In this document: positions 15,879-35,325 of the stretch, piece by piece
Layout: each line of letters begins with the position of its first letter
Position numbering within the stretch: position 1 is the first letter of the stretch
NCBI GenBank assembly: GCA_003164715.1
Contig: PLTZ01000061.1
Location: 1-41,084, forward strand
Source: Opitutaceae bacterium
Lineage (GTDB): Bacteria > Verrucomicrobiota > Verrucomicrobiia > Opitutales > Opitutaceae
DNA length: 41,084 nt
Direction: 5' to 3'
Notes under the pieces: model-generated
Told to the model about the DNA's origin: nothing
Seen by the model: only the letters and a program-made list of their open reading frames with translations
The model's database searches: none
Program-made: the position numbers and the translations under genes

Positions 15879-16547
15879 GTTGTGGGGATCTAGGAATGAG
15901 GAGCGGAACCTGTCCGGAAAATGCTCCGGCTTCGGCCCGATCACGGGTAAGAGGCGGGGTAGTGCAGGTGGGGCAATCACGGTGACGTGGGTCAACCGTG
16001 CGAAGAACAATTTATGATAACGGTGTCATTGCAACCCTGAAATTACCGATTTCTCTGTCGCCCGAGAGGCCCCGGACAATCGAGGAACGGCCGCAAAACC
16101 GCTCTGGGGACCTTTTCCGCGCGAAGGTGCCTGCCAGGTCCGGACGATGCCCGTCTGCGAACGACCAGTTTCCTTGATAAGGGAAATTAGCGCATTTCTA
16201 AGTAATTGTTATATGCGTTCTAAGGCCGACCTGCACACAATCTACCGAGGCTTTATCCGCCGATTGTGCCGCGGGTACCTTGCTCAGGATCGTGCGGGCT
16301 AAGGGCGGCGGACGATGGGAGATCCGGCCAGTTTCCAAGGTCTTTCTGTCGCTGTTGCGGCAATGTGGATGCCCGTCCTCGCGCCTAGGATATAAATGCA
16401 AATGTTAGCAATGCCCTTGGTAGTCGCCCGGCGTGCGGGGTGGGCTGGCCGCGATCTTAGTTGGAGAACCTGCGCCGTTTTTTGAGAGGGCTGCCTAGGT
16501 GCGAGTACCGTGCTGGCGCCCTCGCTCAAGTCCGGAAGCAATTGAGG
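15879..16547. other. Long upstream region of the receptor gene
   Basis: This 669-bp gap separates the GH144 gene from the receptor gene, both leftward. I see no gene. The right part (16385-16412) holds one LacI-like operator in an AT-rich patch (tataaatgcaaatg), so the receptor probably has its own promoter there and a long 5' leader of up to about 500 nt. I recognise no riboswitch fold in the leader. Confidence 0.5.
16397..16410 (+). promoter_or_regulatory. LacI-like operator, copy B (receptor promoter region)
   Basis: TGCAAATGTTAGCA. This copy is close to a perfect palindrome (TGCAAA and TTAGCA around TG). It matches the other four copies at 11-13 of 14 positions. It lies about 520 bp upstream of the TonB receptor start and about 140 bp past the GH144 stop. 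Confidence 0.7.
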
Positions 16548-18749: not shown

Positions 18750-18802
18750 CGAGGGGTGGGGCGGCGGGATCCAAGAACCGGCGAACTTCTTTTTGGTTGC
18801 AA

Positions 18803-18816
18803 TGCAAATGTTGTCA
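18803..18816 (+). promoter_or_regulatory. LacI-like operator, copy A (GH144/GH3 divergent region)
   Basis: TGCAAATGTTGTCA, identical to copy E. It lies 54-67 bp upstream of the GH144 start (leftward) and 131-144 bp upstream of the GH3 start (rightward), so one bound repressor could control both. Read leftward, it overlaps a TTGACA that could be a -35 element. Confidence 0.75.
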
Positions 18817-18946
18817 AAGGGAGACTTTGGGAGGCGGATCCACTCCTCAGGGGGCCGGTTGATGGTTGGCACGCCGCCTTGCGAGTGTGTCGGCCGTTGC
18901 TATGGCTCCCGGGCCGTTCTCTCCTGCCGATTTGAGCTGAATCGAT

Positions 18947-21256
18947 ATGAAACACCACCGAATCCGCCCCTCGTCCTTCCTCATTGGCACGCTTCTCGTC
19001 GGCGCGGCCCTGTTGTGCGAGCCTTCTGTCAGCGGCGACGAACCGGTATCAGCCGGCGTGGACGCCCGAGTTGACGCGCTGCTTGGCCAAATGTCGCTTG
19101 AAGAGAAGGCGGGCCAGCTCAACCAGCTTTCGGCGGGCTCGCTCACCGGGCCGGCGAGGATCGTTACCAACGGGGATGAGCTTATCAGGGAGGGGCGAGT
19201 TGGCAGCCTCTTCAATGCGGTGACGGCCCGCGAAACCAACGACTACCAACGAATGGCGATCGAGGGATCCCGGCTCCACATACCCATGCTGTTCGGTTTC
19301 GACGTGATCCACGGCTTCCGCACGGTCTTCCCGATTCCCCTGGGCCTGTCCGCGAGCTGGGACCCCGACCTGGTGGAGCAGACGGCGCGAAGGGCCGCGG
19401 TCGAGGCGTCCAGCCAGGGAATTCGGTGGACCTTCTCACCGATGGTCGACATCGCCCGCGACCCGCGCTGGGGGCGGATCGCCGAGGGCGCCGGAGAGGA
19501 TCCTTTTCTGGGCGCCGCTTTCGCGCGGGCCTACGTGCGGGGCTACCAGGGGGCGCGGCTTGACGATCCGTCCTCGATCATCGCGTGCGCGAAGCACTTT
19601 GTCGGCTACGGCGCGGCGGAGGGCGGCCGCGACTACAATACGACCGAGATTTCCGAGCGCACCCTCAGGGACGTCTATCTTCCCCCTTTCCACGCGGCGG
19701 TCGACGCGGGCACGGGAACGCTGATGTCGGCCTTCAACTCGCTGGATGGCGTACCCTCGAGCGCCAATGCCTTCACGCTCACGCAGGTGCTAAAGACCGA
19801 GTGGGGTTTCCGGGGCATGGTCGTGAGCGATTGGACCTCGATCCGCGAGATCATGCTCCATGGCATTGCCAACGACGAGGCGACGGCGGCGCGCAGGAGC
19901 TTTCTTGCGGGGGTCGACATGGATATGCAGAGCAACCTCTATCTGCCGTTCCTTCCGGATCTCGTCCGTTCGGGCCTGGTGCCGGTCGGGCGTCTCGACG
20001 ACGCGGTTCGCAGGGTTCTGCGCCTCAAGGTTTCCCTCGGCCTGATGGAGCGCCCCTACGTCGATGTTCCCGCGAATTCAAACCCGGCCGACGCCCCTGA
20101 GAGCCGGGCGCTCGCCCTTCGTGCGGCGGAGGAGTCCATCGTGCTTCTTGAGAATCGGAAGGTAGGGAAGGCGCCCCTGCTGCCGCTTTCGCGCGCCCGC
20201 GGGCTCAAGCTCGCCCTAATAGGGCCTTTGGCGGACGGCGCAGAGGACATGCTCGGATCCTGGTCGGGCCGAGGAGAATCTCGCGATGTCGTGACGCTGC
20301 GCCGGGCGCTCTCGGAGCGCGCCAAGCGCGACGGAGCGCAGTTGTCCTTAGCCCGGGGCACCGATGTGTCCGGCAATTCGGACGCGGGCTTTGCGGAGGC
20401 GGTGGCGTCAGCCAAGGGCGCCGATGTCGTGATCCTCGCCCTGGGCGAAAGCGGCAAGAGTTCGGGCGAGGCTTCGGCCCGGTCCCGGCTGGACCTCCCC
20501 GGCAACCAGCAAAGGCTGCTCGAAACGATTATGGGGACGGGGAAGCCCGTCGTCCTGATCGTCTTCAGCGGGCGACCCCTGGCCCTGACGTGGGCGTCCG
20601 AGCATGTCCCCGCGATGCTCATGGCGTGGTTCCCCGGGATTGAGGCCGGCCCGGCGCTTGTCGGAACCTTGTTCGGCGATGCGGATCCCTCTGGGCGCCT
20701 CACCGTCTCGGTCCCACGTTCGGTGGGCCAGGTGCCGATCTATTACAACTGCCTGAACACAGGCCGCCCCAGGGTCGATCCCATCGGGCTCGGGTCGACC
20801 AAGGCGGACCCCTACTATGTGACCGGCTACCTCGACGAGACGAACACCCCCCTTTATCCCTTCGGGCACGGATTGACCTACACCACGTTCTCCTACTCCC
20901 CGGTCCGTGTAGGCGCGGCGGAGATTAGCGCGGCGGCGCTTAACGGCGGGCAGGCTGCGTTGACAGTGAGCGCGGAAATCAAGAACACCGGCGCGCGTGA
21001 GGGCACCGAGACCGCACAGCTCTATATCCGCCTTCGCGGGACGAGCGTCGCCAGGCCCGTCAGGGAGCTAAAGGGGTTCCAGCGGGTGCGCCTGGCCCCG
21101 GGAGAGAGCCGGCGCGTCGAATTCAAGCTGGGCCGGGATGAACTGTCGTTCTGGAACGTGAATATGAACGATGTCGTGGAGCCCGGATCACTGTATGTAT
21201 GGGTTGCGCCGGACTGCGAGCACGGGCAGGCCGCGAAGGTCGAGATCGTACAATAG
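18947..21256 (+). CDS. bglX: GH3 beta-glucosidase (BglX-like, exported)
   Basis: A 769-residue enzyme, close to the length of Escherichia coli BglX. The signal peptide spans about 1-30. The GH3 N-terminal barrel shows EDPFLGAAFARAYVRGYQG, KHFVGYGAAEGGRDYN and the nucleophile D295 in VVSDWTS. The GH3 C-terminal domain (about 395-620) and a C-terminal fibronectin-III-like domain (LYPFGHGLTYTTFSY onward) follow. It should release glucose from the non-reducing ends of beta-gluco-oligosaccharides in the periplasm. In this locus the natural substrates would be sophorose and longer beta-1,2-linked oligomers, as for the GH3 partner (lin1840) in Listeria innocua. It diverges from the GH144 gene and shares operator A. 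Confidence 0.93.
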   Translation: MKHHRIRPSSFLIGTLLVGAALLCEPSVSGDEPVSAGVDARVDALLGQMSLEEKAGQLNQLSAGSLTGPARIVTNGDELIREGRVGSLFNAVTARETNDYQRMAIEGSRLHIPMLFGFDVIHGFRTVFPIPLGLSASWDPDLVEQTARRAAVEASSQGIRWTFSPMVDIARDPRWGRIAEGAGEDPFLGAAFARAYVRGYQGARLDDPSSIIACAKHFVGYGAAEGGRDYNTTEISERTLRDVYLPPFHAAVDAGTGTLMSAFNSLDGVPSSANAFTLTQVLKTEWGFRGMVVSDWTSIREIMLHGIANDEATAARRSFLAGVDMDMQSNLYLPFLPDLVRSGLVPVGRLDDAVRRVLRLKVSLGLMERPYVDVPANSNPADAPESRALALRAAEESIVLLENRKVGKAPLLPLSRARGLKLALIGPLADGAEDMLGSWSGRGESRDVVTLRRALSERAKRDGAQLSLARGTDVSGNSDAGFAEAVASAKGADVVILALGESGKSSGEASARSRLDLPGNQQRLLETIMGTGKPVVLIVFSGRPLALTWASEHVPAMLMAWFPGIEAGPALVGTLFGDADPSGRLTVSVPRSVGQVPIYYNCLNTGRPRVDPIGLGSTKADPYYVTGYLDETNTPLYPFGHGLTYTTFSYSPVRVGAAEISAAALNGGQAALTVSAEIKNTGAREGTETAQLYIRLRGTSVARPVRELKGFQRVRLAPGESRRVEFKLGRDELSFWNVNMNDVVEPGSLYVWVAPDCEHGQAAKVEIVQ

Positions 21257-21283: not shown

Positions 21284-24200
21284 TCAAAGGTCGACGAGGA
21301 TGACGTTGTCCTTGGGCGACAGGAGCGCCTTCAGAACGTCCTCCCTAAAGCACAAGCCGCCCGCTCGGTAGGGGTTCGCCTCGCGCCGCCCGCCCGTGAG
21401 ACTCGTCCCATTCACGCTCACCGCGTTCGGAGCAAAGCATCCCTTCTTCACCCTGTAGCGCAGCTCCACCGGGCGCCCGCAAAGGGTCGCGCGCGCGACA
21501 AGCCCGTCGAGCGTGGCCGGCAGCACGGGATCGAAGACGATCTCGCCGAATGATTCGCGCAGCCCAAGCAAGCACGCCCGCACCTTGTGCACGAATATCC
21601 CCGGACCGCTCGAATAGAGCCTCCAGCCCCCGCGAACCCGGACTGTGCCCGATTTGACCTCCGGCCAACGGAGTTCTGCTTCATAGCGGTCGGCGAAGTC
21701 CGCGTCGGAGCTCGAGAAGTAGACGTTGCTCTGCCGGGGCGCCGCCCTTCCGACGACCTTGGCGAGCGCCACCGGGTTCACGACCTGGAGGGCCGTCCAA
21801 AGCCTGTCCGCCTCGCCGACCTTCGCCATGGCCTCCGCATAGCGCAGATGGGCGTGCACATACTGAAGCCCGATCTCCCGGCCCACATTGGCCGCCGTCT
21901 CCGCCCGCTTAAAGAGGTGCTCGCACCCGCCAAGGTATTTTGCGGGCTCGCTCATCAGGCGAACGCCGTCCGGGCAAAGGAGCTCCGTGTGCACGAGGGC
22001 CATGTGCCGCGACGCCTCCTCGGCTGTGAAGAGCTCAGCCAGCACCGCCCGCGTCATGGGAAGGAGGCGATAGCGGATGCCCGTCACGGTGTCGGAAGGA
22101 TGAAGCAGCGGGCGGGTGGATCCATCGGGGTTCGTGATGAGGAACCCGGCGACGACCGAGCCCGGCATGAGCCGCTCCGAGAAATCAACCCGCATGCGCG
22201 CGAGCAGTGCGTCGATCCGCGCTCCGCGCTCGCGTTCGCCGACCCTCTGCAAAACGCATGAGAGCTGGCGGAATGTGTGAAACGCCAGAGCGACAGTCCA
22301 GCTGCTGATCATGCGCGTGCGCATCGCCGGATCCGCGGGCTGCAGCGTGTCGTCCCAGTCTCCGTCTCCGTAGTTGATCAGGGCGGTGTTGGGCACAAAC
22401 CGCGCCTCGCATTGCCCTATGACCCTGTCGCAGTGCTGGAGCAGCGTCTCGGCGGGGCCGACCCTGATGTGCTCTTGTGGATCCGTGTAGCCGGTGCGCC
22501 AGCGCAGGAATTCAAGGTCGTTGCTCGCCTCCAGATAGTCGCACAGTGCCTTGACGGGCCAAAGGCACACATCCCCGTGGCTCTCGGCCTGCAGGATGGA
22601 CTGGTAGGGCGGGTGCATGAACCACTGCGGCCATGCGCCATCGGCGCTGAATTGCTGCGCGAACACGACCTCGAGCGTGCGACGGACAAGGGGCAATTCG
22701 CCTGCGGCGATAAGCCACTCGACCGATCCCTGGCAGACGTCTCGCACGCCCCACGCCGCTCCTCCCTGCTGCTCCAAGCCGTGGGGCGCGGAAAAGTGGA
22801 TCGCCGCGTTGTGGACGAACCAGGGGAGGATTTCGTCGACCCTGGAGACGGCGGCCTCGGCGTCATTGCCGTTGCCCTGAATGGCCGGAGCGGGAAGCGC
22901 GAGGCGCACTGGCGGGGGCGGCGGTGCAGACGGTTTGGGCCCATGGGTCCATTCCTTTCTGGCCGCCTGCACCTCCGCCTGGAGCGAATCCGTTCCGTTG
23001 TGGGCGCCGCAGAGGATCACACCCATTCGGCTCGCCTTGCCGGATTGCAGAACCAAGCAGGGCTGGCCGCGGGAGTGACCGTCCTTGAAGAGCAGGCCGT
23101 CGTCTCCGATCTGGATGTTCCCGTCGGCATGGACCGCGGCAATGGCAAAGCATGTCTCCGGTGAGAGGCCAGCCGCGACGCTGCCCACACCGAGCCGACA
23201 CTCCGCCCAGCACTCGTCCCTGTGGATGCGAATCTCGGCGGGATGATCAAACTCGTTTGTGTCGAGCGCCAGTGTGTGCGTCACCAAGAACTCCTCAAGC
23301 ACGGCCCCTTCCCGCACGTGAAGTTCCAGGAAAGCGCAAGAACGCTCACTCGAGCACCAGACCCGCGCCTCGATGACCTCGGCGCCAAGCCGGTACGTCC
23401 AGCGTGCGTCCCCGGTCGTCATTGCAAAGGCGGATGGCAGACCCAACTGGTGCCAGGTGCCGCTGCGCCGTAGGAAGACGCGCTGGCCCGAGGCCCGCCC
23501 TATGCCAAGCGCGCTCCGAAGAACGGGCAATAGGCGCGCGAATGTCGGATTACCGAGATAGGCCTGCGCGGAAAAGATACCGGCCGCATAACATGTCGTG
23601 CCGAACTGCTCAGGGTCGACCCAGCGCCAAGTGCCGCTGCGCAGGATGTGCCCGTGCGGGCGCGCAACCATGGCCTCCTTGTCTCGGGCTACGACGTGCG
23701 CGGAGTTTTCACTGAAGAATGCCTGAAGGCTGCCGTCGGCGCCGAATTCCTCGTGGCGGCGCTCCCCGGGGAACCATTCCGACCAGTCTCTCTGCCGCGG
23801 CCGGTCCCCGTGGAGCCAAGGCGCTGCCACGAACAGGGACGGCGCGGCAGCCTTGCCCTGAGCCGGCGAGGTCCCGGGTGCCCAGGCCACCTGGGCCCAG
23901 GCCGCGGGCAGCACCCCGCGCAGGAGCTCGAGGTCCGACGGGGACGAAGCCGCGCGGTGGTCGGGAACGAAGCGCGCCACGAAGGTCAACTCGGCTGCTC
24001 CGCCAGGCTCGAGGACGACGGGTCTGCTCTGCAGCCCCGCCATGGCCGCCTCGTATTGAAGCCTCTTGGAAGGAAGGCTCTTGGCGCGCACCGCCTCGGG
24101 TTCGCACGCGAGGCGGTGGCCCGTCCCAAAGAACTGAGTCCCGTCCGTGCAGTACGCGGCCGCTCCGTTCACGCATGCGATGGAGAGCCAGGGATGGCGG

Positions 24201-24820
24201 CCGCCGGCCATCGGCAGGTTCTGGCGCGCGAGGATTGCCCATCCGAACCGCGCATCGCTGACCGGCAGGAGGTCAATGTACTGGGACAGGAACGCCTCGC
24301 TGTTTCGCACCGCCCCCTCATCGCCCAGTCCCAAGTCCTGCGCCAGCAGGACGTCGGCCTCCACGCGGCTCCCGGAATCGTTCTTGAGGTGAACGTGCCA
24401 GGCCCATGCAGCCAGGTCCGCGTGCACGGTGAGGGTCACGCGGTTGCTGATGCCCCACGCCGCGGCTCCGGACCATCCGATCGAGCGCGGGCCAAGCCTG
24501 CGGCAGGAGACGCTTGGACCGACAAGGGGAGTCCAGCCCGAGGGACCGCCTGCGGGGCGCCATCTCAGAATCAGCCTGAAGAATCCGTCTTCGGCCGGCC
24601 CCGGGAGCGACTGGCTGATGAGCGTCCCTCCGTGCCGAATCGCGAACAAAGCGCCGGCATCAGTGATGTGCGCGGCGAGCCCGGATGCGGAAGAAAGCGT
24701 CGTCGCCGCAAATTCCGCCGCGGTTTTCGAAACCCAGAAGTCCGGGACCAGCGGCCCGGCAGCGCCGGTTGATCCTTTGCGATTGCCGATTGGGGCGTCC
24801 TTTTGGGGTGATGCTTGCAC
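21284..24820 (-). CDS. GH94 phosphorylase, probable 1,2-beta-oligoglucan phosphorylase (SOGP-like)
   Basis: An 1178-residue protein with no signal peptide, so cytoplasmic. The GTG start is the first in frame. The large N-terminal beta-rich half (about 1-640) and the (alpha/alpha)6 domain (about 660-1060) match the long GH94 type. Motifs are GGAAWGVRDVCQGSVEW and GDGDWDDTLQP; the predicted catalytic Asp is in DWDD (821-824). Short GH94 enzymes such as cellobiose phosphorylase are about 800 residues. The length and the WGVRDVCQG motif point to 1,2-beta-oligoglucan phosphorylase, which converts (beta-1,2-glucose)n plus phosphate to glucose 1-phosphate. It lacks the membrane segments of cyclic beta-1,2-glucan synthases, so it is catabolic. 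Operator C lies about 185 bp upstream. Confidence 0.85.
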   Translation of the reverse strand: MQASPQKDAPIGNRKGSTGAAGPLVPDFWVSKTAAEFAATTLSSASGLAAHITDAGALFAIRHGGTLISQSLPGPAEDGFFRLILRWRPAGGPSGWTPLVGPSVSCRRLGPRSIGWSGAAAWGISNRVTLTVHADLAAWAWHVHLKNDSGSRVEADVLLAQDLGLGDEGAVRNSEAFLSQYIDLLPVSDARFGWAILARQNLPMAGGRHPWLSIACVNGAAAYCTDGTQFFGTGHRLACEPEAVRAKSLPSKRLQYEAAMAGLQSRPVVLEPGGAAELTFVARFVPDHRAASSPSDLELLRGVLPAAWAQVAWAPGTSPAQGKAAAPSLFVAAPWLHGDRPRQRDWSEWFPGERRHEEFGADGSLQAFFSENSAHVVARDKEAMVARPHGHILRSGTWRWVDPEQFGTTCYAAGIFSAQAYLGNPTFARLLPVLRSALGIGRASGQRVFLRRSGTWHQLGLPSAFAMTTGDARWTYRLGAEVIEARVWCSSERSCAFLELHVREGAVLEEFLVTHTLALDTNEFDHPAEIRIHRDECWAECRLGVGSVAAGLSPETCFAIAAVHADGNIQIGDDGLLFKDGHSRGQPCLVLQSGKASRMGVILCGAHNGTDSLQAEVQAARKEWTHGPKPSAPPPPPVRLALPAPAIQGNGNDAEAAVSRVDEILPWFVHNAAIHFSAPHGLEQQGGAAWGVRDVCQGSVEWLIAAGELPLVRRTLEVVFAQQFSADGAWPQWFMHPPYQSILQAESHGDVCLWPVKALCDYLEASNDLEFLRWRTGYTDPQEHIRVGPAETLLQHCDRVIGQCEARFVPNTALINYGDGDWDDTLQPADPAMRTRMISSWTVALAFHTFRQLSCVLQRVGERERGARIDALLARMRVDFSERLMPGSVVAGFLITNPDGSTRPLLHPSDTVTGIRYRLLPMTRAVLAELFTAEEASRHMALVHTELLCPDGVRLMSEPAKYLGGCEHLFKRAETAANVGREIGLQYVHAHLRYAEAMAKVGEADRLWTALQVVNPVALAKVVGRAAPRQSNVYFSSSDADFADRYEAELRWPEVKSGTVRVRGGWRLYSSGPGIFVHKVRACLLGLRESFGEIVFDPVLPATLDGLVARATLCGRPVELRYRVKKGCFAPNAVSVNGTSLTGGRREANPYRAGGLCFREDVLKALLSPKDNVILVDL

Positions 24821-25190
24821 GGAGCGTTGAGCTGCGGGAATCGAAGGGGATCAGCCGGCGGGGATCGGCGAAGTGTTTCTTGTCTGATGGTTGCGGGGAG
24901 CTGACCGATACAAGCGTGCGGCCCCGTCGTCGCGGAGCCGGTGATGGTGTTCTGGGGTTCCGACAGCCAGCTTTAGGCATGCCGGGAGGGACACATCTCT
25001 GGTATGACAACCTTTGCAATGCAAACATAAATGGATGCGAGGCGCCTCCGCGGCCGGTGCCGAGTGGATTTCACTAAGGCGCGGCGGCGGCCGGAAGCCG
25101 GCTTTGCGCGCGGGACGGCCGCAGGGGCCGGGTGCCCGGGCCGCCAAGTCCAGATTACCTCTATTTCCCCGAACAATCCTTAAGACTGTC
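24821..25190. other. Upstream region of the GH94 gene
   Basis: This 370-bp gap lies between lacI (stop at 25191) and the GH94 start, both leftward. It contains operator C at 25005-25018, so GH94 probably has its own promoter here rather than depending on read-through from lacI. I see no gene in the gap. Confidence 0.5.
25005..25018 (-). promoter_or_regulatory. LacI-like operator, copy C (GH94 promoter region)
   Basis: TGCAAAGGTTGTCA on the minus strand. The match to copy A extends beyond the 14 bp: 18 of 20 bases agree when TTGCAW precedes the core. It lies about 185 bp upstream of the GH94 start. Confidence 0.72.
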
Positions 25191-26270
25191 CTAGGCGCGC
25201 GTGGGAACCTGCGTCGAATCCCTGATCACAAGTGCGGCGGGAAGGTTGCTAGGCACGACCACCGGCGCGGGTCCGGCGCGGGTCACCGCCTCGACGAGGA
25301 GGCTCACCGCGCGCTCAGCCAGGTCGGCGAGCGGCTGGCGCACGGTCGTCAGGGCCGGTCGGCATACGGTTGCCCAAAGGCCGTCGTCGAAACCCACGAT
25401 CGAAATGTCGCCCGGGCAGCTCAATCCCTCGGATCGCGCAGCGTCGATCGCCCCAAACGCAATCTCGTCGTTTGCACAGCACACACCGGTCGGACGCTCG
25501 GGCGACCGAAGGAGCGCCGTCATCCCTGCGCGGCCGGTCTCGGGGCTGAATGGGCCGTCAAAAATCCATTCCGGGCGCGGCTCGGCCCCTCCGCGCTTCA
25601 AGGTTTCGAGATAACCTTCCTTTCGCTCGCACGCGTCCCGTGAGCCCGAGGGGCCCAGCAGGAGCCCAATCCTCCTGTGGCCGAGTTGGAGCAGGAGATT
25701 GGCTGCGGAGCTCGCTCCGCCTACATTGTCAATGCCGACCACCGGCGCGCCGAGAAGCGAGGGATCGACGCTTGGCGGAAGCGCGGAACGGGTCAGGACC
25801 AGCGGGCGGCGGTAGCCTTGGATCTTTTGGACATCGGATTCGGAGAGGGGCTCGGCCAGGTAAATGATTCCGGAGGAATCGAGGCCGAGGTGCTGCAGGG
25901 CCTCACGGAAATCTGTCCGGGGGGTCTTGCGCAACGTGCAGATATGGACGTCCCAGCCCCGGGTCGCCGCGGCATGGAGCGAGCCGGCTAGGAAACGGCC
26001 GTAAAATTCAGAAAAGAAAATGTTTTCATCGAGCGGCACGACGACCGTCAACGTGGCGTTTAGCCCCTGGCGCATGATCCGGGCGCCGGGATTGGGCGTG
26101 AAGCGCAGGCGGTCGGCGAGGTCCAGAATCTCCTTTCGGCGGGCCGGGCTCACAAGATGCGCCGTCTCCTGTCGGAGCGCCCTCGACACGGTGGATGGGG
26201 AAACGCCGAGGCGGGTGGCAATCTGGACTATTCCGTCCTTCGGCTTTCTTAGACCTGAATGAAAAGACAT
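25191..26270 (-). CDS. LacI-family transcriptional regulator of the glucan locus
   Basis: A 359-residue LacI/GalR regulator. The helix-turn-helix is near the N-terminus (IATRLGVSPSTVSRALRQ, about 16-33), followed by the hinge region (RFTPNPGARIMRQG) and a periplasmic-binding-protein-like effector domain with GIDNVGGASSAANLLLQLGHRRIG and NDEIAFGAIDAARSEGLSCPGDISIVGFDD. It should bind the palindromic operators listed here and be released by a sugar from the pathway, perhaps sophorose; the effector is inferred. One operator (26318-26331) lies 48-61 bp upstream of its own start, suggesting autoregulation. The recognition helix has the S-TVSRAL pattern typical of family members that read TGnAA half sites, which agrees with the operator sequence. 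Confidence 0.93.
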   Translation of the reverse strand: MSFHSGLRKPKDGIVQIATRLGVSPSTVSRALRQETAHLVSPARRKEILDLADRLRFTPNPGARIMRQGLNATLTVVVPLDENIFFSEFYGRFLAGSLHAAATRGWDVHICTLRKTPRTDFREALQHLGLDSSGIIYLAEPLSESDVQKIQGYRRPLVLTRSALPPSVDPSLLGAPVVGIDNVGGASSAANLLLQLGHRRIGLLLGPSGSRDACERKEGYLETLKRGGAEPRPEWIFDGPFSPETGRAGMTALLRSPERPTGVCCANDEIAFGAIDAARSEGLSCPGDISIVGFDDGLWATVCRPALTTVRQPLADLAERAVSLLVEAVTRAGPAPVVVPSNLPAALVIRDSTQVPTRA

Positions 26271-26317: not shown

Positions 26318-26331
26318 AGCAAACATTTGCA
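26318..26331 (-). promoter_or_regulatory. LacI-like operator, copy D (lacI promoter)
   Basis: TGCAAATGTTTGCT on the minus strand. The central 12 bases (GCAAATGTTTGC) form a palindrome around TG, the most symmetrical copy in the window. It is 48-61 bp upstream of the lacI start, where it could repress lacI itself. Confidence 0.75.
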
Positions 26332-26457: not shown

Positions 26458-26471
26458 TGACAACATTTGCA
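26458..26471 (-). promoter_or_regulatory. LacI-like operator, copy E (second PF10091 gene and transporter promoter)
   Basis: TGCAAATGTTGTCA on the minus strand, identical to copy A. It lies 83-96 bp upstream of the start of the rightward operon at 26554. With copy D it makes a two-operator divergent region of about 280 bp, so looping between them is possible. Confidence 0.75.
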
Positions 26472-26553: not shown

Positions 26554-29331
26554 ATGTTTCACCCACGAATTCATAAGTATCTGGTGGGAAGCAGTATAGT
26601 GCTTTTGCTCTGGATGGGAGGGCTGGGTCCTGCGCACGCCGAGAGCGCGCCGCCTGCTTGGGCAGGGGCGCGGCCTTCCGCTGTGCTTCCGCCCGAGGAC
26701 GACATTCTGCTGAACGAACTGCAGCAGGCGGCATTTCGATTCTTCGTTGAGCAGGCTGATCCGCATACGGGTTTGGTGAGGGACCGGGCGCGGTCCGATG
26801 GATCGCCGAGCGAAGGCAGGGCCAGCATCGCCGCGTCGGGTTTCGCGCTCAGCGCCTGGGCCGTCGCGACACAAAGGGGCTGGGTTGACCGGGAGACCGC
26901 CCTGGTGCAGGTGCGCAAGGCCCTGCGGTTCCTTGCGGACAAGGCTCCGCGCAAGCACGGCTTCTTCTATCACTTCATGGAGATGGACACCGGCGAGCGG
27001 GCGTGGAGGTGCGAGCTCTCCCCTATCGACACCGGGCTGTTCTTCGCGGGGGCGATCATGGCGCGCGAGTATTTCTCGGACCCGGAGATCACGCTGCTTG
27101 TCAACCGGCTGGTCCATGACGTGGACTGGGAATGGTTCCTCAACGACGGCCAGACGATCGCCATGGGGTGGCACGACGAGGAGGGGTTTTCCCGGTACCG
27201 CTGGGACAAGTACTCGGAGGCCACGATGCTCAGCTTCCTCGGCATGGGTGCGATCGAGCGGCCGCTCCCCGTCGCGTATTGGGACGCATGGACCCGGACT
27301 CCGGTGGGCACCTATGCGGGGTTCCACTTCATCGAGGGGCCGCAGCTCTTTATCCACCAGTTCACCCACGCCTACGTCGATTTTCGCGACCTGCGCGACG
27401 CCTACGCCGACTATTTCCGCAACTCGGTTCTGGCGTCCCTCGCCCAGCGCCAGTTCTGCGTCAACCTGAGGAACGAGTTTCCGAGCTGGGGGGAGAGGCT
27501 CTGGGGGCTGACCGCCTCCGACTCGGCTGACGGCTACAAGGCATGGGGCGGACCGCCCCGGACGCAGGACGCCAACGCGCTGGACGGCACGATCGTGCCC
27601 TGCGCCGCCGCGGGCTCGGTCGCGTTCGTGCCCAACGAGGCGATGACGACGCTCAGGTTCATGCGCACGGCCTATGGGTCCCGGACCTGGGGCCGTTACG
27701 GGTTCGTCGACGCCTTCAATCCAGAGACCGGCTGGGTGAACCCCGACGTCATTGGCATCGACCTGGGGATCACGCTCCTGCAGGCGGAAAACGCGAGGAC
27801 CGGGCTGGTTTGGGCGGTCTTCATGCAGGCGCCGGAGGTGCAGCGGGCCCTCGCGCGCGCGGGCTTCGTGTCGCAGAAGCGCACGCTTCCCTGGGCCGAC
27901 CAGGAGAAGCTCCATGACCTCGCGGCCCAGACGTGGAGCTCCATCGAATCCGCGCCCGTCACTGCGGACTCGCTCGGGCTGCGCCTTTCATCGGTGCTGG
28001 CTGCGACCTCCCTGGGGCTGATTCCCGAGGAGGAGGCGGTTCGGCGCGTCACCTCGATGCTCAAGTCGACTCCGGCGCCTTCGAGCGAGCGGGCAGTCGC
28101 CCTCTATGCCGCGAGCCTCGTGACGCTGCGCCATGCCATACCGAAGTTCGCTCCGGAGGCGCAGTCGCGGCTGGCGTCCATCGACTGGAGGCGAATCCCC
28201 ATCGAATCGAACCTGCTCGGCGCGGCGAGCCGGCTGGCCGTGTTCTTCCAGATCGCGACCGGGGCGAGGCCCGCCTCCGCGTGGTCCGACTTGAAGCGCG
28301 CCTCTCGGGCCGAGGGACACGTCTACGTGCTTGAGCCGGCGCAGGTCCTTGACCAGATGCTGCCGGGCCTCTGGCTCGACGAACGCTCGATCGTCACCGG
28401 TGCGTCCGCCTCGCAGCTTGCCTACGCGATCGCCGTGGAAAAGAGAAAGACGTCCACCGCGAGGTTTCCCTACGACGTGCAGAGCACCGCGCTGCTCCTT
28501 GAGCAGTACCCGGCTGAGGTCGCGGCGGGGCTCAGGACGGCTCCGATACCTCCGGGATGGCTGCTCCAGGCGACCGGTGACGACCGGGCGGTCCTGCTCA
28601 TGAGCATGGCCAATCTCCTGGCCCCCGACTGCCTGCGCGAGTGGTTCCAGCAGGACGAGCTGGTGCAAGCGGGGCGGACGGCGGTCGGCGAGTTTGCCGC
28701 CGCGGCGTTCGGCGGCGACAACTCTGTATTCGCGCGCAACGAGCTCGCGATCCCCGTGGCCGTGCCGCCCCAGCGCAGGGCCCTGGTCGTGCGCTCGAAC
28801 CTGCCCCGCGACAAGTGGCAGTGGATCCTCGTGAAGGGGATGAGCTACAAGATCTCGGAGGCCGATGTGCGGCCGGGCGACCCGGACCTTGAGCTCCGGT
28901 TCGCGCTGACCTGGGACCCGAAGGCGCTGCACTTCCACGCCGAGGTGCTCGACACGCCGCCCGGCTTCTTCCCGCCCGCGGGGCGCCGGTCCGCGGAGCT
29001 GTTCATCAACCCCAAGCGCGACGGCCTGGTCTGGCTGTCGCCCGACAACTTCCAGTTCGCCTACCAGCCCGACGGCTCGGCGATGGAATGGTTCCACAAT
29101 AGGCCCGTCAAAGCCCGCATCCAGGTGACCGAGCACGGCTACACGATCGAATCCGACATCACGTGGAAAGAGCTTGGCATAGACCCGAAGCCCGACATGG
29201 AGATCGACCTGACGGCAAACGTTACCGCGGGAGGCACCAACGAATGGGCCCCGTCGCTCGAGCTCAGCTGGCGCTACTACCAGCGCCCCAATGAGGGATT
29301 TGGTCTGGGCACCGTGCGCCTAAGCCCATAG
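26554..29331 (+). CDS. Exported PF10091 (GH144/GH189-related) enzyme with a CBM9-like C-terminus
   Basis: A 925-residue protein with a signal peptide (about 1-30, ending AHAES). The PF10091 glycoamylase-type (alpha/alpha)6 domain covers about 50-440: LQQAAFRFFVEQADPHTGLV, ELSPIDTGLFFAG, WDKYSEATMLSFLGMGA, LFIHQFTHAYVDFRD, NLRNEFPSWGERLWGLTASD. It is clearly a different subgroup from the GH144 enzyme at 16548; these motifs look closer to the glycoamylase domains near or in cyclic beta-1,2-glucan synthases. A mostly helical middle of about 300 residues is unassigned. The C-terminus (about 750-925; LRFALTWDPKALHFHAEVLD, ELFINPKRD, ITWKELG) resembles CBM9-like sugar-binding domains. It heads the operon with the ABC importer. 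It may act on cyclic or modified beta-1,2-glucans; the specificity is inferred. Confidence 0.82.
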   Translation: MFHPRIHKYLVGSSIVLLLWMGGLGPAHAESAPPAWAGARPSAVLPPEDDILLNELQQAAFRFFVEQADPHTGLVRDRARSDGSPSEGRASIAASGFALSAWAVATQRGWVDRETALVQVRKALRFLADKAPRKHGFFYHFMEMDTGERAWRCELSPIDTGLFFAGAIMAREYFSDPEITLLVNRLVHDVDWEWFLNDGQTIAMGWHDEEGFSRYRWDKYSEATMLSFLGMGAIERPLPVAYWDAWTRTPVGTYAGFHFIEGPQLFIHQFTHAYVDFRDLRDAYADYFRNSVLASLAQRQFCVNLRNEFPSWGERLWGLTASDSADGYKAWGGPPRTQDANALDGTIVPCAAAGSVAFVPNEAMTTLRFMRTAYGSRTWGRYGFVDAFNPETGWVNPDVIGIDLGITLLQAENARTGLVWAVFMQAPEVQRALARAGFVSQKRTLPWADQEKLHDLAAQTWSSIESAPVTADSLGLRLSSVLAATSLGLIPEEEAVRRVTSMLKSTPAPSSERAVALYAASLVTLRHAIPKFAPEAQSRLASIDWRRIPIESNLLGAASRLAVFFQIATGARPASAWSDLKRASRAEGHVYVLEPAQVLDQMLPGLWLDERSIVTGASASQLAYAIAVEKRKTSTARFPYDVQSTALLLEQYPAEVAAGLRTAPIPPGWLLQATGDDRAVLLMSMANLLAPDCLREWFQQDELVQAGRTAVGEFAAAAFGGDNSVFARNELAIPVAVPPQRRALVVRSNLPRDKWQWILVKGMSYKISEADVRPGDPDLELRFALTWDPKALHFHAEVLDTPPGFFPPAGRRSAELFINPKRDGLVWLSPDNFQFAYQPDGSAMEWFHNRPVKARIQVTEHGYTIESDITWKELGIDPKPDMEIDLTANVTAGGTNEWAPSLELSWRYYQRPNEGFGLGTVRLSP

Positions 29332-29359: not shown

Positions 29360-30778
29360 ATGCCCGCATCAACCCCACGCAGGCTAGCTTTGGCCGCGAT
29401 CCTCGCCGCGAGCCTCGCCGGCTGCGCCCGCGGGCCCGCATCCGGAGGGCGCGTGGTCGTCGACTATTGGGAGAAATGGAGCGGGTTTGAGGCTGAATCG
29501 ATGCAGTCCGTGATCGACGACTTCAACCGCAGCCAGAACCGCATCGAGGTGAGGTTCCTCTCCGTGAGCCAGGTGGACATTAAGCTCCTCCTCGCGACCT
29601 CGAGCGGGCATCCCCCCGACGTCGCCGGACTGTGGTCGGAGAACATCCCGGACTTCTCCGAGAAGGGCGCCCTGACGCCGCTCGACGGGGGCCTCGCGAA
29701 GGCCGGCATTGGCGCCGACAGGTACACGCCTCTGTTCTGGGAGCTCTGCCGGCACCGCGGCTTCACCTGGGGCCTGCCGACCACCCCGGGGTGCGTCGCG
29801 CTGTTCTACAACAAGAAGCTGTTCCGGGCGGCCGGGCTGGATCCCGAGCGCCCCCCGAGGACCTTTGCCGAGCTGGAGGCGATGAGCCGGCGCCTCACGA
29901 TTGCGGAGGTCGAGCGCGGCGGCCGGATCGTCCGGATCCCGTTCGACGACATGACCCCGGCGGAGCGCGACGCGAGGCGCTACACCCTGGTGCAGGTCGG
30001 CCACCTCCCCCAGGACGCCGGCATGTTCCTGTCGGGCTGGGGCTGCTGGTTCGGCGCCCGGTACTACGACGGGGACCGGCGCATCCTGGCCGACGACGCC
30101 GGGAACCTGGCGGCCTATTCGTGGCTCAGGGACACGGCCCGGACCTACGGCGTGGACAACCTGCGCAGCTTCATCGACGGCTTCGGCGTCTCCCAGTCGG
30201 CCCAGACCCCGTTTCTCGGCGGCACCGAGGCCATGGTGGTCCAGGGCCCCTGGATGATGAATTTCATCGCGAGGTACGCCCCGGATCTGGAGTGGGGGGT
30301 GGCGCCGTGCCCCGCCGCGGACGGGGTCGGCGGCGGGGAGCCGGTGACCCTTGCGCAGTGCGACGTCGTGGTCGTCCCGCGCGGCGCGCGCCACCCGCGC
30401 GAGGCCCTCGAGTTCATCTGCTACCTGCAGCGCCAGGACGTCGCCGAGAAGCTCGCAAGGTCGCAGCAGAAATTCACGGCGCTGCGCCAGGTGTCCGACG
30501 GCTTCATTAAGAACCATCCCAACCCGGCGATCGGACTATTCATCAGGCTTTCGAGGAGCGCGGGCGCCCGCTATGTGCCGCGCCTGTCGATCTGGCACGA
30601 ATACGACGCGGAGCTCGCCGTGGCGCGCGAGCGGGTCCTGGACTTGAAGGAGACCCCGGCCGAGGCTCTGGCCGTGGTCCAGCAGCGCATGCAGCGCACG
30701 CTCGACCGGGTGATGCGCCGCCGGGACGCCATGGGCAGCGACCGGCTGAGGGAATGGACCTCCTATGACAAGTGGTGA
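29360..30778 (+). CDS. ABC sugar transporter, solute-binding lipoprotein
   Basis: A 472-residue family 1 extracellular solute-binding protein. The N-terminus is a lipoprotein signal with lipobox LAGC (C22). The mature part has the usual two-lobe pattern (VDYWEKWSGFEAESMQSVIDDFN, PPDVAGLWSENIPDF, ALFYNKKLFRAAGLDP, GTEAMVVQGPWMMNFIARYAPDLEWGVAPCP). It would capture oligosaccharides in the periplasm and deliver them to the two permeases downstream. In the Listeria innocua beta-1,2-glucan operon the equivalent protein (lin1841) binds sophoro-oligosaccharides, so that is the likely ligand here. The gene begins 28 bp after the PF10091 gene and overlaps the first permease gene by 14 bp, so all are one operon. 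Confidence 0.92.
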   Translation: MPASTPRRLALAAILAASLAGCARGPASGGRVVVDYWEKWSGFEAESMQSVIDDFNRSQNRIEVRFLSVSQVDIKLLLATSSGHPPDVAGLWSENIPDFSEKGALTPLDGGLAKAGIGADRYTPLFWELCRHRGFTWGLPTTPGCVALFYNKKLFRAAGLDPERPPRTFAELEAMSRRLTIAEVERGGRIVRIPFDDMTPAERDARRYTLVQVGHLPQDAGMFLSGWGCWFGARYYDGDRRILADDAGNLAAYSWLRDTARTYGVDNLRSFIDGFGVSQSAQTPFLGGTEAMVVQGPWMMNFIARYAPDLEWGVAPCPAADGVGGGEPVTLAQCDVVVVPRGARHPREALEFICYLQRQDVAEKLARSQQKFTALRQVSDGFIKNHPNPAIGLFIRLSRSAGARYVPRLSIWHEYDAELAVARERVLDLKETPAEALAVVQQRMQRTLDRVMRRRDAMGSDRLREWTSYDKW

Positions 30779-31643
30779 CCGCAAGCGCACGTGGATAGGC
30801 CTGGCGTTCGTGAGCCCCTGGCTCATCGGGTTCGCCGCGTTCACGCTCTATCCGGTGTGCGCGTCGATCTATTTCTCGTTCTGCGACTACGACGTGCTGT
30901 CGCCCCCGGTTTGGGTGGGCACCCTCAACTACCAGGACATGGTCACGGACAGCGTCTTCTGGCAGTCGGTATGGAACACGCTCTTGTTCAACCTGATGGC
31001 GCTTCCGGTGGGCCTCGTCTCCGCGCTCGCGCTGGCGCTGCTCCTCAACCAGCCCGTGCGGCTGCGCGGAATCTTCAGGGCGATCTACTATCTGCCCTCG
31101 CTTGTGCCCGCGGTGGCGAGCGCGATGGTCTGGCTGTGGATCCTTAACGGCAGGCTGGGGCTCCTCAATCAGGCGCTCGTAGCCATCGGGATCTCCCATC
31201 CCCCCCAGTGGCTCGGCGACCCGGCGTGGGCCAAGCCGTCGCTGGCGCTGGTTTCCCTCTGGGGCTGCGGGAACACGGTCGTGATCTACCTGGCCGCCCT
31301 GCAGGGCGTCCCCCGCTCGCTCCTCGAGGCGGCGATGATCGACGGCGCCTCCGCATGGAAGCGGCTGCTCAACGTCACGCTTCCCGCGATTTCTCCGGTC
31401 ATCTACTTCAACCTCCTTATCGGCATCATCGGCGGCCTGCAGGTGTTCACGACGGCGTTCGTGATGGGCGGGGCGGAGCGCTCGACGCTCTTCTACGCGA
31501 TCTACATCTACCAGAACGCATTTGAATACCGCCACATGGGTTACGCTTCGGCGATGGCATGGATCCTTTGCCTCATGATCCTGGCCCTCACCTGGATGGC
31601 ATCTCGGCTGTCGCGCAGCCGGGTGCACTACCAAGGGGACTGA
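30765..31643 (+). CDS. ABC sugar transporter permease (MalF/LacF type)
   Basis: A 292-residue membrane protein with about six transmembrane helices. It starts with the family signature (TWIGLAFVSPWLIGFAAFTLYPVCASIYFSFCDYD) and carries the EAA loop (EAAMIDGASAWKRLLNVTLPAISPV) that docks onto the ATPase. It overlaps the binding-protein gene by 14 bp and is followed 5 bp later by the second permease, with which it should form a heterodimer. No ATPase gene lies in the window, so a shared MsmK/UgpC-type ATPase from elsewhere would be needed. Confidence 0.93.
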   Translation: MTSGDRKRTWIGLAFVSPWLIGFAAFTLYPVCASIYFSFCDYDVLSPPVWVGTLNYQDMVTDSVFWQSVWNTLLFNLMALPVGLVSALALALLLNQPVRLRGIFRAIYYLPSLVPAVASAMVWLWILNGRLGLLNQALVAIGISHPPQWLGDPAWAKPSLALVSLWGCGNTVVIYLAALQGVPRSLLEAAMIDGASAWKRLLNVTLPAISPVIYFNLLIGIIGGLQVFTTAFVMGGAERSTLFYAIYIYQNAFEYRHMGYASAMAWILCLMILALTWMASRLSRSRVHYQGD

Positions 31644-31648
31644 TCCAC

Positions 31649-32761
31649 ATGCGCATCACGGCAAAGTTTTCCATCTACCTCGTCCTGGTCGCCGGGGCCG
31701 CGATGTTCATCCTGCCGTTCGCGTGGATGGTGCTCACGGCGCTCAAGCCCCTCAACCAGACGCTCCGGCAGTCCCACCTGTGGCTGCCCCGGCGCTTCGA
31801 GGCGCCGCTCGAGGGGCGAGTTCAGGAGGTGTGGCCCGGGGCCGCGGTGACGGAGCCGAGCGTCTGGGCCCGGGAGCAAGGCGCGGCTCAGCCGGTCGCG
31901 CTTCCGGAAGGCTCGATACGGGACGACGCGTGGCAGCCGGCGACGGGCGCCCCGTTGCCCATCGTAATCCTAAAGCGGATTCCCGCGTCGGCGGCTTCCC
32001 CGTGGAGGGAGATCAGCGATCTGAAGGGCCTGAGCCGCGACGTCGTCCCGGAGGCCTCGGTTCGCTCGCGGATCGTGTTCCGCTGGGAGAATTTCCCCAG
32101 CGCCGTGCATGCCATGAGGCATTTCTCGCGCTATCTGGCCAACACGCTGATCCTATGCGTGCTCAACGTCATCGGTACGGTGCTCTCGAGCGCGGCGGTC
32201 GCCTACGGGTTCTCGCGGCTGGAGTGGCGGGGGAGGGACCGCCTTTTCGGCCTGCTGCTCGGGACGATGATGATCCCGTTCCCGGTGGTCATGGTCCCCC
32301 TCTACGGGCTGTTCCGCTGGCTGGGGTGGGTCGGCACCCTGCAGCCGCTCTGGGTCGGATCGTTCTTCGCCAGCGCCTTCAATGTATTCCTGCTGAGGCA
32401 GTTCTTCAGGACGATACCGAAGGACCTTTCGGAGGCGGCGCGCATCGACGGCTGCGGCGAGTTCCGGATCTTCTGGCAGATCATCCTGCCACTGTGCAGG
32501 CCAGCGCTTGTGGTGGTGGCGCTGTTCACGTTCCTCGGGGCCTGGAACGACTTCCTCGGTCCCCTGATCTACCTGACCGACGAGAAGGACTTCACGCTCG
32601 CGCTCGGCCTCCAGGCGATGAAGACCAGCGAGTCCGGGGCGACCGAGTGGCACTACCTCATGGCGGCAAGCACGCTCGTCATCCTGCCCGTGATCACGCT
32701 CTTCTTCGTCGCGCAGCGCAGCTTCATCGAGGGAATCGCGCTCACGGGAACGAAGGCCTGA
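31649..32761 (+). CDS. ABC sugar transporter permease (MalG type) with an enlarged first periplasmic loop
   Basis: A 370-residue permease. The ATG at 31649 lies 5 bp after the previous stop with AAGGGGA upstream, and starts right before the first helix; an earlier in-frame start overlaps the preceding gene and is unlikely. It shows TALKPLNQT after helix 1, RYLANTLILCVLNVIG at helix 2 and the EAA loop EAARIDGCGEFRIFWQIILPL. Between helices 1 and 2 it carries roughly 90-100 extra residues (about 42-140; EAPLEGRVQEVWPGAAV onward) compared with the usual short loop. This extra, predicted periplasmic domain might contact the binding protein. Partner permease and binding lipoprotein are directly upstream. 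The gene ends 9 bp before the convergent GH105 gene. Confidence 0.92.
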   Translation: MRITAKFSIYLVLVAGAAMFILPFAWMVLTALKPLNQTLRQSHLWLPRRFEAPLEGRVQEVWPGAAVTEPSVWAREQGAAQPVALPEGSIRDDAWQPATGAPLPIVILKRIPASAASPWREISDLKGLSRDVVPEASVRSRIVFRWENFPSAVHAMRHFSRYLANTLILCVLNVIGTVLSSAAVAYGFSRLEWRGRDRLFGLLLGTMMIPFPVVMVPLYGLFRWLGWVGTLQPLWVGSFFASAFNVFLLRQFFRTIPKDLSEAARIDGCGEFRIFWQIILPLCRPALVVVALFTFLGAWNDFLGPLIYLTDEKDFTLALGLQAMKTSESGATEWHYLMAASTLVILPVITLFFVAQRSFIEGIALTGTKA

Positions 32762-32770
32762 GCGTTGCCG

Positions 32771-35062: not shown

Positions 35063-35325
35063 GCGGCGACGGTTTTGCAGGAAGCGGGCTGAGTCAAGCC
35101 GTCGCCGAGTCCCCGACGGGGTTACCTGTCAGAACCCGGCGGTTCGGGGCGGCTTTCCGGTTGCCGCGCAGCCCGCTAATGCTTTGGCGGGAGCTATGCC
35201 CGCGACGACCTCAACCATGCTCCTGGGATTCGGATGGATTCTTCACGCGCGGCGTCAGCGGATCGACGAATGGTTAGCCAAGCACCTTGACCGCTAACGC
35301 GTAGTGGGCATTTTCACCTCATCGG

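Follow-up and report, generated by a model that had tools for sequence, protein, structure and literature searches.

A putative secreted GH144-type beta-1,2-glucanase with a degenerate second barrel and a CBM9-fold end in an Opitutaceae bacterium

We asked what a large protein of the PF10091 family does in an Opitutaceae bacterium (assembly GCA_003164715.1, 98.8% complete), and what is carried by a long middle part of it that matches no Pfam family. The gene, hereafter the target, lies at 26554..29331 (+) in a 41,084-nt stretch of contig PLTZ01000061.1 that was analysed as a whole and is called the window. The open reading frame (ORF) starts with ATG, encodes 925 aa and is genuine; its third-position GC is 0.87, the neighbour genes lying between 0.75 and 0.92, and the same three-part architecture (a GH144-type barrel, a middle domain and a CBM9-fold end) recurs in 19 loci (L032-L050, the window-type loci below). 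Read by eye, residues 1-29 (26554..26640, +) resemble a signal peptide, with AHA before the expected cleavage point and ES after it. We consider it likely that the target is a secreted GH144-type beta-1,2-glucanase, likely of the endo type and probably inverting, in which a non-catalytic pseudo-barrel and a CBM9 accompany the catalytic barrel and whose products feed an importer. The AlphaFold2 model that underlies part of this reading was built from 29 aligned sequences and has a mean predicted local distance difference test score (pLDDT) of 90.0 and a predicted template modelling score (pTM) of 0.87.

The Pfam match of the target to PF10091 covers residues 215-426 (E 1.1e-64), and the NCBIfam scan of the protein gave no match. 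PF10091 was found at two places in the genome, both inside the window, namely the target and a gene at 16548-18872 (-). An earlier reading of this DNA, made from its letters and here called the sequence-only reading, had described two such proteins with different catalytic-domain motifs. Both statements hold, several catalytic-site columns carrying different residues in the two proteins.

The N-terminal barrel and its place in GH144

The first domain, residues 45-441 (26686..27876, +), adopts in the predicted model the (alpha/alpha)6 barrel fold required of GH144. Its nearest solved chains by sequence are XcSGL 8xul (E 4.2e-59), 4gl3, 3eu8, 4qt9, BDI_3064 5z06 and CpSGL 5gzh/5gzk, among which 4gl3, 4qt9 and 3eu8 carry only "putative glucoamylase" as deposited name. 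By fold, the GH144-type chains come first (Z 49.8-53.4), followed by the GH189 chain 8wy1 (Z 47.0). The catalytic set is complete in the alignments. E222 (27217..27219, +) stands at the position of the general acid, XcSGL E239 or CpSGL E211, and the clan-defining F266 (27349..27351, +) and Y328 (27535..27537, +) stand at XcSGL F286 and at XcSGL Y367 or CpSGL Y330, the latter a subsite -3 residue. D159 (27028..27030, +), the candidate general base, aligns with CpSGL E142, and XcSGL likewise has Asp there. These four residues are invariant among the aligned relatives (8/8 in alignment A1 and 29/29 in alignment A2), and all the catalytic residues that PMC12102758 names for the SGL clan are found in the first domain.

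One could imagine that the target is a mere glucan-binding protein, since two modules without evident catalytic residues adjoin the first barrel. The sequence-only reading had itself envisaged that the key acids might be gone. They are lost in the middle domain, as described below, but they are present in the first barrel, where the clan-defining residues are kept and E222 and D159 show no variation in either alignment; a purely binding role is extremely unlikely. The same reading had also raised transglycosylation as in GH189, and the first domain indeed shares its fold with 8wy1, at 17% identity. However, the column of the GH189 nucleophile Glu (TiCGS E1442; mechanism residues from PMC10834661) holds Ala in the target, the His-His of the cyclic glucan synthases (CGS) is not kept, and the tree parts the first domain from CGS at 100/100. 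We rejected GH189-type transglycosylation by this domain, and the chance that it is a retaining transglycosylase is next to negligible.

The PF10091 phylogeny proposed by the sequence-only reading places the first domain with characterised GH144 enzymes. In a 42-row tree it falls among 14 rows with XcSGL, CpSGL, 4gl3 and BDI_3064 (100/100), opposite 28 rows of GH189, GH193-like, middle and solo barrels; the trees contain no rows of GH162, GH192, GH194, PgSGL4, SkSGL or true GH193. In an 80-row tree, 31 target-type first domains are split off together by a branch with SH-aLRT 92, apart from the CpSGL/BDI_3064 rows and from the XcSGL rows. As judged from these trees, the first domain is a third GH144-side lineage, beside those two. 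The closest solved chain by sequence is XcSGL (XCC2207), the GH144 beta-1,2-glucanase of Xanthomonas campestris, with 37% identity to the target barrel over 391 aligned columns; the XcSGL-CpSGL and target-BDI_3064 pairs both show 29%. XcSGL has a similar fold (Z 52.4; the deposited 8xul chain is the E239Q mutant) and the same Glu/Phe/Tyr/Asp set, but it belongs to a different lineage of the tree and has no second barrel or CBM9. BDI_3064, which we take to be the exo-acting GH144 homologue known from Parabacteroides distasonis, is of the same family and fold as the first domain (Z 49.8). It differs from the target by an N-terminal region that the target lacks, and it has neither a C-terminal barrel nor a CBM9. 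According to PMC8861115 and PMC11842490, the P. distasonis homologue with an extra N-terminal region is exo-acting and releases sophorose. Table 3 of PMC12102758 describes XcSGL as one barrel plus a disordered tail. The same paper used a Phycisphaerae homologue to stand for the far side of GH144, and a Phycisphaeraceae protein (L052) falls in the lineage of the target in the 80-row tree; this hints, without proof, that the two may be the same part of the family.

A clan barrel without its catalytic residues

The middle domain, residues 446-745 (27889..28788, +), is mostly helical in the predicted model and gave no Pfam match when scanned alone. The sequence-only reading had called it about 300 residues of unassigned helical sequence. 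It is helical and outside Pfam, as stated, but it can now be assigned, as a degenerate (alpha/alpha)6 barrel of the SGL clan. Five other Verrucomicrobiota proteins, L112 (= L051), L113, L114, L115 (= L053) and L116, have a full-size barrel at this place. The two of these that were scanned, L051 and L053, have PF10091 matches in their middles (1.5e-14 and 5.4e-9) together with DUF3131; the best solved chain is TiCGS 8wy1 for L051 (E 4.3e-30) and CGS 8rf9 for L053 (E 1e-26, with 8wy1 at 1.8e-26). Aligned with hhalign, 16 window-type middles matched the five full-size ones with Prob 100 and E 3.7e-38 over 272 columns, and the full-size middles in turn matched the CGS domains in a profile alignment with Prob 99.9 and E 2.7e-32. 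The window-type profile reached 13% with the GH144 barrel and 1% with a CBM9 control.

Structure prediction, which the sequence-only reading had suggested for this region, recovered the clan barrel as well. A separate model of the middle and end (pLDDT 89.4, pTM 0.66) superimposes the middle on 8wy1 with Z 27.5, at 3.0 A over 275 residues. Other clan chains follow at Z 20.5-26.3, and the best structure outside the clan, squalene-hopene cyclase, reaches Z 11.2. To the extent that profiles and models can tell, the middle represents an incomplete clan barrel, nearer to GH189/GH193-type barrels than to GH144. The nearest described relatives of the full-size middles are the GH189 chains, TiCGS 8wy1 and CGS 8rf9. 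Compared with 8wy1, however, the middle barrels lack the GH189 nucleophile and the long insertion, and the window-type version is both shorter and degenerate. PMC12102758 names a helical insertion, placed after helix 4 and before helix 5, as the mark of GH189; the full-size middle of L051 has nothing that aligns to the part of 8wy1 between residues 143 and 307.

The middles group with five solo proteins in the 42-row tree (86/88), and the neighbouring clade unites CGS with two GH193-like rows (99/94). The solo proteins (L117-L121) are single barrels of other Verrucomicrobiota, roughly 520-600 aa long, and cluster with the middle domains. Around three of them (L162-L164), none of 13 window proteins used as queries had a match at E 1e-8, so the gene neighbourhood gives no clue to their function. 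The two GH193-like rows, L153 and L154, are called so solely because they lack the insertion, SkSGL itself being outside the tree. Approximately unbiased (AU) tests did not support the middle as a plain member of GH189 or of GH193 (p 0.003 each), GH193 being represented by a clade of the middles with L153 and L154; when the solo rows were added to that clade, p was a borderline 0.038. The groups for these tests were chosen on an inspected tree. An internal duplication of the first domain was rejected as the origin of the middle (AU p 4e-73), the two barrels of the target being 17% identical over 263 columns. Six relatives, L055, L075, L077, L083, L144 and L149, join a first domain to a CBM9 with no recognisable middle.

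What was lost from the middle barrel is its catalytic set. In the target, A558 (28225..28227, +) stands where clan barrels have their general-acid Glu, Ala also occupies the base column, and the positions of Phe and Tyr fall in gaps. The GH189 nucleophile and acid/base Glu correspond to a gap and Ala, and the GH193 general acid Glu and base Asp to Ala and Ala. Of seven window-type middles, four have Ala in the acid column, two Glu and one Gly, and in the base column five have Ala, one Glu and one Gly. The full-size middles mostly have Asp in the acid column (4/5, with Gly in the fifth), and three of the five retain Phe, Tyr and the base Asp together; of the five solo proteins, three have Asp in the acid column, one Gly and one Glu. 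Despite these losses the middle is under purifying selection. By simple counting, with several pairs close to saturation at synonymous sites, the ratio of non-synonymous to synonymous substitution (dN/dS) in seven pairs was 0.07-0.29 for the middle and 0.03-0.17 for the first domain. The 29 matches to the middle in the family, from 28 of 200 genomes, all belong to open frames 913-1015 aa long, which is the size of the fused protein (frames were judged by length, and the first domain was not confirmed in each).

Could the middle still be catalytic in its own right, by means of different residues? The purifying selection would fit such a role, as would the Asp of most full-size acid columns and the three full-size versions in which Phe, Tyr and the base Asp are all present. 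Against it, the target has Ala at both the acid and base columns and gaps at the other two, and the dN/dS of the middle exceeds that of the first domain in all seven pairs. We regard a catalytic middle as very unlikely. A bolder idea is that the middle and solo barrels are an undescribed branch of the clan, with Asp for the acid Glu in 7 of the 10 full-size members compared here, which turned into a lectin-like glucan-binding pseudo-glycosidase; together with the GH144 barrel and the CBM9 it would make a two-barrel machine for foreign cyclic beta-1,2-glucans. We offer this tentatively, as a possibility more doubtful than probable.

The C-terminal domain and a scenario for glucan use

Residues 741-925 (28774..29328, +) form a CBM9-fold domain. 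On the target alone, Pfam CBM9_1 scores below its cut-off (E 0.0087, 16.4 bits against 23.4), and the relatives L051 and L053 exceed the cut-off. The CBM9-like C-terminus of the sequence-only reading is borne out by both profile and fold: a profile of the end domain with ten relatives matches the CBM9 structure 1i82 with E 6.3e-13, and the model of the domain matches 1i82 with Z 18.1 over 166 residues and 7nwn with Z 17.8. CBM9 chains span Z 17.2-18.1, and the first structure of another kind, a putative carbohydrate-binding protein, has Z 14.6. Foldseek gave E 8.2e-10 against 1i82. The fold is thus that of the CBM9 of Thermotoga maritima xylanase 10A (1i82), but at 21% identity.

We propose the following scenario. 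Beyond the inner membrane, external beta-1,2-glucan would be cleaved by the N-terminal barrel, with D159 as the candidate base and E222 as the general acid, which would act via the 3-OH of the +2 glucose in the manner put forward for the clan. The pseudo-barrel would be non-catalytic and may serve in docking, in glucan binding or in bracing the catalytic barrel, and the CBM9-fold end probably holds glucan. The released oligosaccharides would enter through a TonB receptor and then through the ABC importer encoded directly downstream, the BDI_3064-type GH144 of the exo type and a GH3 protein would trim them, and a 1,2-beta-oligoglucan phosphorylase (SOGP) would phosphorolyse them, the whole gene set being controlled by a LacI regulator. 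Two GH144 genes with SOGP, GH3 and an importer have a known precedent. The cluster of Ignavibacterium album has two putative GH144 genes, GH3, GH94 and a Sopn-binding ABC protein, with TonB uptake proposed (PMC8861115). It resembles the target locus in gene set but comes from a different organism group, and the accessible account of it mentions no second barrel. Among the titles and abstract openings searched, no two-barrel GH144 protein is described, although subscription papers and preprints are thinly covered there, so that its absence from print is unproven.

The division of labour between the two PF10091 proteins, put forward by the sequence-only reading, is plausible and gains detail from their kinship: the other protein is a full-length homologue of BDI_3064, and the target belongs to a different GH144 lineage and lacks the N-terminal region. 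It could also take another form, in which the first domain prefers the beta-1,2-glucan of other bacteria in cyclic or substituted form, the middle and CBM9 catch the rings, and the BDI_3064-type enzyme takes linear chains. A cyclic glucan would be foreign to this bacterium, since neither of the two PF10091 places found in its genome lies in a frame as long as a cyclic glucan synthase, and an exo enzyme that starts from the non-reducing end (PMC11842490) would presumably depend on an endo enzyme for the opening of rings. However, as far as the catalytic residues of the pocket go, nothing in the sequence or the model separated ring binding from chain binding, and such a preference seems unlikely, though its chance is appreciable.

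Several observations weigh against the target being an endo-type GH144 glucanase with a clan-derived pseudo-barrel. The first domain groups with XcSGL at 86/79, and the characterised lineages kept together without it have an AU p of 0.22, so that it may be nested in GH144 or be a sister to it; the refuting condition named by the sequence-only reading, a place inside GH144 with the same activity, is borne out by half, through the grouping with GH144. No characterised enzyme could be placed in its lineage, and the proposed activity and endo mode therefore rest on analogy to XcSGL. For the middle, the direct match of the window-type profile to the CGS/GH189 profile is weak (Prob 39%) and the Foldseek E-values are modest (best 2.5e-5), so that the link to GH189 rests on the intermediates and on the fold. 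The choice of most AU groups after tree inspection makes the p-values too firm. Both trees flag odd letter make-up, foremost in the window-type middles, and the larger one also flags long branches. Glu is retained in the aligned acid column of two of the seven window-type middles (L035 and L047). The relatives compared are the best 80 of 391 confirmed, a list headed by the window-type loci. The SOGP gene was unseen in six of the 19 window-type loci, some of which are cut by contig ends, as well as in L051 and L053. Finally, the Trp that precedes EQDSVE in 1i82, presumably one of its two ligand-stacking Trp residues, has no counterpart in the aligned target, which makes ligand or glucan binding by the end domain uncertain; the second stacking Trp lies outside the aligned stretch.

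With a secreted GH144-type glucanase as the preferred reading, a stretch without Pfam match is explained, one clan having given both the apparently active and the dead barrel of a single secreted protein. The analysis also points to a GH144 lineage to which no characterised enzyme could be assigned, and to a clan branch that matches no group in the comparison. If the pseudo-barrel does bind beta-1,2-glucan, it would represent a new way of building a binding module, and the target would be a candidate tool to open or detect cyclic beta-1,2-glucans.

Gene order, operator-like sites and related loci

Directly past the target, after 28 nt, comes the gene of an ABC importer solute-binding protein (SBP_bac_1, Pfam; 29360..30778, +), with a lipobox LAGC read from the sequence, followed by two permease genes assigned by Pfam (30765..31643 and 31559..32761, both +). 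No ABC ATPase turned up among the scanned neighbours of 29360-32761, although no dedicated search was made; a shared ATPase may be encoded elsewhere. Beyond the importer, a large ORF at 32765-35092 (+), opposite a GH88/DUF4861 gene, has a third-position GC of 0.65, which suggests a shadow ORF. On the other side of the target lie the LacI-family regulator (25191..26270, -; Pfam), a GH94 1,2-beta-oligoglucan phosphorylase-like protein with SOGP domains by Pfam (21284..24820, -), a GH3 beta-glucosidase-like protein found by domain scan (18947..21256, +), the full-length BDI_3064-type GH144 already mentioned (match to BDI_3064 at E 6.5e-192) and a TonB-dependent receptor (13065..16010, -; plug domain, E 2.8e-8).

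A pattern search found LacI-operator-like sites, all read on the + strand, between lacI and the target (26318..26331), at a second position upstream of the target (26458..26471), upstream of the SOGP gene (25005..25018), between the divergent GH144 and GH3 genes (18803..18816) and upstream of the TonB-dependent receptor gene (16397..16410). The site at 18803..18816 falls inside the longest GH144 ORF, yet upstream of an internal Met (about 18749; start read from sequence) that opens a signal-like sequence. Five window sites resemble TGCAAACGTTTGCA, against a shuffle mean of 0.91 and no shuffle of 100 reaching five, and four match TGCAAANGTTGTCA, against a mean of 0.32 and again none of 100; shuffles were made for the window only. 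In the whole genome, TGCAAANNTTTGCA with at most one mismatch occurs at five places, two of them in the window, and a backward control pattern at two. A site with at most three mismatches lies between -400 and +60 of the target start in 14 of the 19 window-type loci, a count made without a control. The operator was read from single matches in L044 and L048 and then counted elsewhere, so these two loci are not independent tests of it. A search for 16-base near-palindromes found none common to the loci. If these sites are operators, they would join the TonB receptor, both GH144 genes, GH3 and SOGP in one LacI-type regulon, in line with the shared regulon of the sequence-only reading.

The fetched flanks of the 19 window-type loci contain LacI in 14, SOGP in 13 and a BDI_3064-type gene in seven, counts that are uncorrected for contig ends. 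Directly after the target stands a solute-binding protein gene in five loci and a TonB receptor gene in 11. The ABC importer follows the target in five of the six loci of its own genus, the contig of the sixth stopping there; gene order thus supports the earlier link of the protein to the importer. In 11 of the 13 other loci (L037, L038, L040-L045, L047, L048 and L050), a TonB receptor gene replaces the importer, which is a swap of uptake systems at a conserved place outside the genus. Among the five two-barrel loci outside the window-type group, SOGP is present within the fetched stretch in three, L165-L167 (= L113, L114 and L116).

In genus mates G002, G004, G005, G007, G008 and G010, PF10091 matches occur within frames 1925-2957 aa long, a length close to that of a cyclic glucan synthase. 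A more distant occurrence is that of L154 (NZ_CP119799.1), on a haloarchaeal plasmid, where the GH193-like barrel adjoins a gene annotated bglX and lies near one annotated GH172.

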